Of a stretch of 64,000 nt of DNA, positions 4,719-54,130 are shown one piece after another. Within the stretch, counting starts at the first letter, position 1. Every line of letters starts with the position of its first letter. The notes under the pieces were generated by a model. The model searched no databases, had not been told where the DNA came from, and saw only the letters and a program-made list of their open reading frames with translations. The DNA comes from an uncultured Caulobacteraceae bacterium (GTDB taxonomy: Bacteria; Pseudomonadota; Alphaproteobacteria; Caulobacterales; Caulobacteraceae). The DNA is taken from assembly GCA_937138625.1 (NCBI GenBank), contig CAKZPF010000003.1:1-64000 (forward strand), in the 5' to 3' direction. A program made the translations under genes and the position numbers.

Positions 4719-4798
4719 AATGCGGGCTGTTTGTGGGCATTGCCTTTGGCGCTGAGGTGTATGGCTCGGCGGTGCTCACTATGGCAAGCTCCGGCATT

Positions 4799-4855
4799 TG
4801 ACCCATGGTCGAGGGCATATGACCCATGGTCGAGAGCATCTGGCCTATGGTCGAG
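4799..4855. repeat. 21-bp tandem repeat, about 2.7 copies
   Basis: Copies start at 4799, 4820 and 4841 (consensus tgacccatggtcgagngcat); the last is partial. The repeat lies in the 258-bp gap between the orphan pair and tRNA-Trp. I see no gene in this gap. Confidence 0.8.
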
Positions 4856-4907: not shown

Positions 4908-4983
4908 AGGAGTGTAGCTCAGCTGGTAGAGCATCGGTCTCCAAAACCGAGGGTCGGGGGTTCGAATCCCTCCGCTCCTGCCA
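4908..4983 (+). tRNA. tRNA-Trp (anticodon CCA)
   Basis: 76 nt with encoded CCA. Acceptor AGGAGTG pairs with CGCTCCT (one G-U), the D-arm is GTAGCTCAGCTGGTAGAGC, the anticodon loop CTCCAAA gives CCA at 4941-4943, and the T-arm is standard. Its position upstream of secE-nusG is the usual proteobacterial arrangement. Confidence 0.97.
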
Positions 4984-5045
4984 ACGTGGGCCTGATCCGA
5001 ACCCCCTCTGTGTTATCTTTCGGGACAAGTCCTCCGATTTTTTGG

Positions 5046-5260
5046 TTCGCGGCAATTCGGCCTAACCGCCTCATGCCTCCACCGGGGCGGCAAAGGGTTG
5101 CCGGCGGGCCGTCGCCCGCGCCGCTATGAAATAGCGGATAAAGGGTTCACAGCAATTCGGCCTAACGGCCTCATGCCTCCACCGGGGCGGCAAAGGATTG
5201 CCGGCGGGCCGTCGCCCGCGCCGCGATGAAATAGCGGATAAAGGGTTCGCGGCAATTCGG
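5046..5260. repeat. two tandem 100-bp triple-hairpin repeat units plus a partial third
   Basis: Units at 5046-5145 and 5146-5245 are nearly identical with a period of exactly 100 bp; 5246-5260 repeats the first 15 bases. Each unit starts TTCGCGGCAATTCGG, contains GCCTCCACCGGGGCGG, then three adjacent hairpins. In unit 1 these are CGGCAA/TTGCCG (5088-5103), GCGGGC/GCCCGC (5104-5119) and CCGCTAT/ATAGCGG with loop GAA (5121-5137). A related element with different stem sequences follows tRNA-Leu at 53775. The rest of the 451-bp gap 4984-5434 shows no gene and no convincing secE promoter. Confidence 0.85.
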
Positions 5261-53682: not shown

Positions 53683-53767
53683 GCGGTCGTGGCGGAATTG
53701 GTAGACGCGCAGCGTTGAGGTCGCTGTGGGGCAACCCGTGGAAGTTCGAGTCTTCTCGACCGCACCA
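53683..53767 (+). tRNA. tRNA-Leu (anticodon GAG)
   Basis: 85 nt with encoded CCA. Acceptor GCGGTCG pairs with CGACCGC, the long class-II variable arm (TGTGGGGCAACCCGT) is present, and anticodon loop TTGAGGT gives GAG at 53717-53719. Confidence 0.97.
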
Positions 53768-53774
53768 TTATTTC

Positions 53775-54035
53775 GTTCGCGGCACCTCATTTCATTCGGG
53801 CCTCCACGGGGGCGGCTATCGCCGACGCACAGTCGTGCGCGCCACGGCGTTGCCGTGGGCAATGTGTGTTCGCGGCACCTCATTTCATTCGGGCCTCCAC
53901 CGGGTATCCACGGGGGCGATTGATTTTGTTTCGGCATTTCGAACCGAAAACCGGCTTCCATTCTCACGCACCCTTGGGACATGCTTTTTCTTAAATGCCT
54001 TCATCGCCGACGCACAGTCGTGCGCGCCACGGCGT
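53775..54035. repeat. tRNA-Leu-linked triple-hairpin repeat, one intact and one interrupted copy
   Basis: The intact copy (53775-53858) starts GTTCGCGGCA, has ATTCGG and GCCTCCACGGGGGCGGC, then hairpins CGGC/GCCG (53813-53824), CGCAC/GTGCG (53826-53839) and CCACGGC/GCCGTGG (53842-53858). The second copy is split: its first 33 bp (53868-53900) are identical to 53775-53807, and 33 bp identical to 53818-53850 recur at 54003-54035, with about 100 unrelated bases between. The 363-bp gap 53768-54130 contains no supported gene. Confidence 0.82.
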
Positions 54036-54130
54036 AAGCCTGGCAAGCTACGGGCGTGATCGGCGCTTGCCACCGGGCGGGGTGTGGTATAGCCATGATG
54101 TATCCTTTTGCCCCCACGCCCAGGTGATTG

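Follow-up and report, generated by a model that had tools for sequence, protein, structure and literature searches.

A multi-hairpin palindromic repeat of Alphaproteobacteria beside tRNA genes and inside protein-coding genes

The window analysed here is the whole stretch of 64,000 nucleotides at the start of contig CAKZPF010000003.1, from an uncultured Caulobacteraceae bacterium. It carries copies of a repeat element of about 95-100 bp with four to five hairpins, located downstream of tRNA-Trp and tRNA-Leu genes. The element is probably an interspersed multi-hairpin DNA palindrome of Alphaproteobacteria, of the REP/RPE kind, which would spread as DNA through a non-RAYT enzyme and settle in the slot of a terminator. 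Judged from the sequences, covariation across copies is overwhelming evidence for structure.

Copies in the window and structure of the element

The features of the two loci, all on the forward strand, are as follows.

4908..4983, +, tRNA-Trp(cca), 5' of the array (ARAGORN, Rfam RF00005)
~5037-5043, +, T-run before element copy 1
5044..5144, +, element copy 1 (box TTCGCGGCA, P2, CTCC..GGGGCGG, P3, P4, P5), from Tandem Repeats Finder (TRF); match to covariance model (CM) R1 at C3:5046-5124, E 2.7e-9
5088..5103, +, P3 of Trp copy 1 (hairpin 1 of the first-pass annotation), CGGCAA-AGGG-TTGCCG, from covariation
5104..5119, +, P4 of Trp copy 1 (hairpin 2 of that annotation), GCGGGC-CGTC-GCCCGC
5121..5137, +, P5 of Trp copy 1 (hairpin 3 of that annotation), CCGCTAT-GAA-ATAGCGG
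5145..5244, +, element copy 2 (TRF); CM match C3:5146-5224, E 3.6e-8
5245..5260, +, third repeat, 5' box part only (GTTCGCGGCAATTCGG) (TRF, 2.2 copies)
53683..53767, +, tRNA-Leu(gag) (ARAGORN)
53768..53866, +, full Leu copy with leader TTATTTCG and box TTCGCGGCA 8 nt past the CCA; CM match C3:53776-53845, E 6.1e-9
53813-53824, +, P3 of the Leu copy, CGGC/GCCG
53826-53839, +, P4 of the Leu copy, CGCAC/GTGCG
53842-53858, +, P5 of the Leu copy, CCACGGC/GCCGTGG
53868..53918, +, second Leu copy, interrupted, 5' half; nhmmer match 53868-53904
53919..54004, +, nested palindromic insert (GGCATTTCGAACCGAAAA...TTTTTCTTAAATGCC), ~85 nt, in the P3 loop of the second Leu copy
54005..54038, +, second Leu copy, interrupted, 3' half (P4 + P5); nhmmer match 54002-54046

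The first-pass annotation had described 100-bp tandem units after tRNA-Trp and a related element after tRNA-Leu. Both are recovered here: the array at 5044-5260 has a period of 100 with 2.2 copies and 94% matches (TRF), and the two tRNA genes end at 4983 and 53767. The three hairpins it proposed lie at the claimed positions in Trp copy 1 and the Leu copy, and an extra fourth hairpin, variable in sequence, is located 5' of the CTCC motif in the window copies. In Trp copy 2, hairpin 3 has a single uncompensated mismatch (CCGCGAT/ATAGCGG).

Relatives of the nested insert also split element copies after tRNA-Lys, tRNA-His and tRNA-Arg(tct). At least four element copies (window 53919-54004 and loci L042, L083 and L087) carry such a palindrome (GGCATTTCGAACCGAAAA...TTTTTCTGAAATGCC; ~85-115 nt) in their P3 loop, reminiscent of the rhizobial or CIR-type intergenic palindromes. 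Upstream of tRNA-Trp, window positions 4795-4855 contain imperfect tandem repeats of TTTGACCCATGGTCGAGNGCAT.

The folding energy of the window copies is unremarkable, with z between -0.8 and -1.2 against dinucleotide shuffles. It is no better than that of shuffled sequences, so evidence for structure must come from comparing the copies with each other. The consensus order is a T-rich leader of 8-10 nt, the box CTC(A/G)CGSC, P1 (3 bp) around a hypervariable P2, CTCC..GGGGCGG, P3, GRCG, P4, TTGCC and P5. The P4 loop NGTC is conserved across the family, and a T-run of at least three is found in the leader of 74 of 96 copies, compared with 18 of 96 at the control. The linkers are conserved, while the stems vary freely yet stay complementary. 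For the six base pairs outside the fixed positions of the search pattern, 96.6% of cells are paired (60.5% when shuffled) in an alignment that is not model-fitted, and pairing falls to 31-41% when the partner is slid. The corresponding value for 101 distinct CM hits is 97.3% (68.1% when shuffled), in an alignment fitted to the CM. The compensatory stem change reported between the two window loci is thus borne out in the family. In L194 and L301, tandem repeats of just the box (ATTCCCTCACGGC) separate tRNA-Thr from a full element.

Stems also differ between copies at the same site. At one gene in one genus, orthologous 3' copies in five species have P2, P3 and P4 arms that differ yet pair perfectly (for example GGCCAC/GTGGCC vs GCTCGC/GCGAGC), with conserved loops and linkers; a sixth species has a deletion remnant and a seventh an empty site. 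This pattern would result either if compensatory changes follow rapidly or if copies exchange whole hairpins. The empty-site comparison among these species gave no clean target-site duplication, the flanks being too diverged. Another copy, after tRNA-Thr, is shared by three species of a single genus.

Distribution and location relative to genes

The covariance-model search proposed in the first-pass annotation found further copies both in this genome and in other genomes of the class. With model R1, built from 54 copies, about 25 copies (E up to 0.1) were identified in the 2.02-Mb genome. By DNA searches, further copies were located after tRNA-Thr(ggt), His, Thr(cgt), Ala(cgc), Cys, Lys and Arg(tct) and at non-tRNA sites. 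Scanning 84,980 species with a 24-base degenerate pattern gave 73 stretches, nearly all alphaproteobacterial, with Roseibium hamelinense and Oricola indica among the cultured carriers. In the class sample, at least 29 of 385 alphaproteobacterial genomes from about 20 families are positive by R1, a lower bound with 12 candidates scored per genome; among relatives, with more candidates scored per genome, the number is 9 of 41. One other genome is positive among the 24 sampled from the window's own family. The phylum sample contains no positive outside Alphaproteobacteria, and the element does not follow tRNA-Trp in 29 relatives. Therefore, the family is class-restricted and patchy.

Genomes that carry the element have multiple and tandem copies. 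Plasmid carriage was considered and rejected, as two element queries found no close copies on plasmids. Two contigs from a viral collection, either viral or chromosomal in origin, bear the element (L161 and L162). In the window's own genome, contigs C7 (L080:1-67) and C3 (L081:2474-2645, the C3 end) end within element copies that are nearly identical, and the assembly is probably broken there by the repeat.

Among 99 distinct CM copies from other genomes, 19 begin 6-11 nt past the CCA of an intact tRNA (Ser, Arg, Thr, Phe, Leu, Met, Ala). Another 34 begin at most 60 nt, mostly 2-25 nt, past a same-strand stop codon, a count that is approximate because ORF calling simply took the longest ORF. 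In the pattern-derived set, all tRNA cases (13 of 13) fall at 8-11 nt. In 31 of 97 copies the box lies 8-11 nt past the end of a CCA, compared with 6 at the control position, and the adjoining gene 3' end is on the same strand for 29 copies and on the opposite strand for 3 (p 2.6e-6). One copy follows RNase P RNA (L098). The linkage to tRNA genes seen in the window therefore holds for part of the family only: 19 of the 99 copies have this address; in the family as a whole, many copies follow stop codons and eight lie inside protein-coding genes.

The tRNA address coincides with that of terminators. In the window's own genome, tRNA intrinsic terminators mostly start 8-11 nt past the CCA, which is the element's slot, and tRNA-Lys alone has both. 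No U-tract follows the window copies; across copies, a T-rich stretch is found 3' of P5 in 48 of 96, compared with 18 of 96 at the control.

The eight Pfam-verified genes that hold the element encode UvrB (four genes, at different positions), UvrD, UbiD, a hydantoinase and a DNA methylase. All eight ORF copies are antisense and in one frame, and encode GK(R/G)DR(A/P)(P/S)AGQAAPAE; two sense frames are also open (7 of 8 and 6 of 8) and are not used. In PDB alignments with solved homologues, hydantoinase B has an additional segment of 32 residues (96 nt), and UbiD and UvrD have about 32 and 80 extra residues. NCBIfam gave no match for the encoded peptides.

Comparison with known repeat families

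The first-pass annotation did not recognise the element as a named family, and this holds for Rfam, where no RNA family matches at the gathering score. RPEs (Rickettsia palindromic elements) are palindromic repeats of about 100-150 bp in ORFs and intergenic regions, with no known transposase, and those of Rickettsia are also located in tmRNA and RNase P RNA (PMC2229807, PMC10969869). The element is like them in being an alphaproteobacterial palindrome that is both intergenic and in-frame in conserved proteins, in one consistent frame, and also beside RNA genes. However, the RPE stem is formed by terminal inverted repeats (about 12 bp), whereas the outermost conserved stem of the element, P1, is 3 bp. 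The element also differs in being built of four to five hairpins, each separate and joined to the next by a conserved linker, in its antisense-only coding frame and in its hosts, which are mostly free-living alphaproteobacteria, while RPE was described from Rickettsia. The two were compared by description, and the peptides of the element are without NCBIfam match.

REPs are located less than 20 bp from gene 3' ends and also inside uvr genes, and the CGTC-REPs of alphaproteobacteria are without a dedicated transposase (PMC3733652). In general, the element fits the REP description (palindromic, multi-copy, within ~20 bp of gene 3' ends). It shares with CGTC-REPs the alphaproteobacterial hosts, the location less than 20 bp from gene 3' ends and in uvr or other repair genes, and the lack of an associated transposase. 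Nevertheless, CGTC-REPs are single hairpins of 20-40 bp with stems of 8-9 bp, and the element consensus lacks their features (CGTC/TGTC tag, AT-starting 8-9 bp stem, CCA tail). Some of the loci also have a CGTC-REP-like motif, GTCATTGC..GCAATCCA, at other places, separate from the element. GTAG REPs with their RAYTs are similar as palindromes near 3' ends, some of them intragenic, but the element consensus has no GTAG tag and the window's own genome no RAYT gene.

CIRs (CcrM-associated intergenic repeats of Caulobacter) were reported to be strictly intergenic with a conserved GANTC (PMC2229807, PMC10969869). Like the element, they are alphaproteobacterial repeats of about 110 bp with several inverted repeats; the element differs in that it is also found in ORFs and its consensus is without GANTC, CIR1-4 being set apart by description. 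Br-REP1 of Bradyrhizobium is a 3'-UTR repeat with three palindromes (PMC5082802), and its central palindrome CCGGAATCTCGAGATTCCGG is unrelated to the element consensus. An intrinsic terminator does not fit the window copies, which have GC hairpins without a U-tract. As for MITEs, the genus comparison, with its diverged flanks, gave no clean target-site duplication, and there is one candidate direct repeat, in L188. From the above, we file the element as sharing the ecology of REPs and RPEs and belonging to no named family in the open-access literature, although an older description could exist.

Palindromes that code for protein have been described in Rickettsia and among some REPs; the element extends them to an apparently uncatalogued family across free-living Alphaproteobacteria, and we found no mention of the precise tRNA address of the element in the open-access literature. 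Such repeats pass covariation tests meant for structured RNA. Strong covariation with almost no G.U is a caution for RNA discovery pipelines, as the pairing may be held in DNA. Orthologous copies with wholly different perfect stems make the co-change of arms directly testable.

Pairing in RNA or DNA and possible origins

G.U pairs make up only 0.9% of paired cells (10 of 1069) in the element CM hits, compared with 5.7% (27 of 475; p 1e-7) in tRNA acceptor stems and 10% (77 of 771; p 2e-20) in terminator-like hairpins from the same loci, with p-values only indicative since the copies are related. None occurs at the six pairs outside the fixed positions of the search pattern. P4 contains 2 of 448, a count weakened by the selection of part of this set with two fixed pairs, which leaves the other G.U counts intact. 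Two-sided stem changes are plentiful, and one-sided G.U states are nearly missing. This near-absence points to palindromes that would be kept in DNA, or in both strands, rather than in RNA. Compensation had been read in the first-pass annotation as selection on RNA or single-stranded DNA; RNA is not required, and the DNA alternative is favoured because G.U pairs are nearly absent.

The reading that we consider probable, a palindrome spreading as DNA, would work as follows. The hairpins, extruded or single-stranded, may be what is recognised or copied, which would give the nearly Watson-Crick-only stems. The mobiliser would not be a RAYT transposase but some other enzyme. Copies would survive at the least harmful sites, namely the slot that an intrinsic terminator would fill, where termination or protection of transcripts by the sense strand may come in addition. 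Mobility, maintenance at the DNA level and a 3'-end effect on transcripts are what we infer for the element. Against this reading, no copy was seen to move, no clean target-site duplication was defined and the two plasmid queries gave no close copy. No mobilising gene was found either: RAYT (PF01797) is missing from the window's own genome, as it is from 9 others among 15 element-rich ones, and mobilisation by RAYT is rejected here for want of the gene. Retention at orthologous sites within genera and the tight sense placement suggest a host function beyond a purely selfish reading.

Another explanation is possible, but we consider it unlikely: the sense hairpin cluster, as a 3'-end RNA element, would act as a terminator for the tRNA or gene upstream, by itself or together with Rho, or would block 3' exonucleases, and would be kept for this function. 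It would account for the box at 6-11 nt past the CCA in 19 of 19 close tRNA cases and mostly 2-25 nt past stops, for the strand bias of adjoining 3' ends (29 same-strand, 3 opposite) and for the 8-11 nt slot shared with tRNA intrinsic terminators, both being present only at tRNA-Lys. ORF copies are never sense despite open frames; a sense strand that stops transcription would have this effect. However, the U-tract is inconsistent (48 of 96 copies vs 18 of 96 at the control, none in the window), G.U avoidance is unlike that of terminators or tRNAs, and the element would be dispensable, since its distribution is patchy and it is missing at the same tRNA in 29 relatives.

A bolder combination, which we hold to be rather doubtful, is a class-wide mobile palindrome that would target tRNA 3' ends (6-11 nt past the CCA), take or duplicate the T-loop-to-CCA segment and double as a host 3'-end element, with its arms renewed whole in DNA.

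It appears still more improbable that the element together with a T-loop-to-CCA segment forms one mobile or duplicating entity, in the manner of integrases that use a T-loop-to-3'-end att site. In the window's own genome, 10 of 39 tRNA genes do have a copy of their own 3' end, its last 18-20 nt (15-20 of 20 nt matching), at a distance of 70-200 nt on the 3' side; the copy breaks off in the T-loop or close to it. Similar units follow tRNA-Ser in L190 and tRNA-Met in L203. Within a long ORF in L188 (1480-1620), the element and a tRNA-like 3' end (GGATTCGAACTTGTTCCCCTCGGGTCCACCA) are flanked by the direct repeats GGTCCACCA / GTCCACCA, one candidate target-site duplication. Against this, the majority of focal copies elsewhere are not next to a tRNA, and tandem duplication would give the same layout. 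Several of the 3'-end copies here also enclose other hairpin families and not the focal element, so they are kept as a lead outside its definition. A cloverleaf or tRNA-like fold of element plus tRNA 3' copy was tried and rejected, as the units folded otherwise.

The own 3'-end copies spaced by other hairpin families are found at the tRNA loci L042, L046, L047, L052, L056, L062, L064, L065 and L071. These families include the GGGGTCCCCACAAG...GTGGGGCA and GACGGGTT..AACCC types, with no sequence relation to the focal element.

Finally, the element could have been no more than a degenerate structure or a duplication confined to the locus, which individual folding energies no better than shuffles would allow and which the first-pass annotation had expected to leave no other copies, or stems broken without compensation. 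This is refuted by the genome-wide and class-wide copies with strong covariation.
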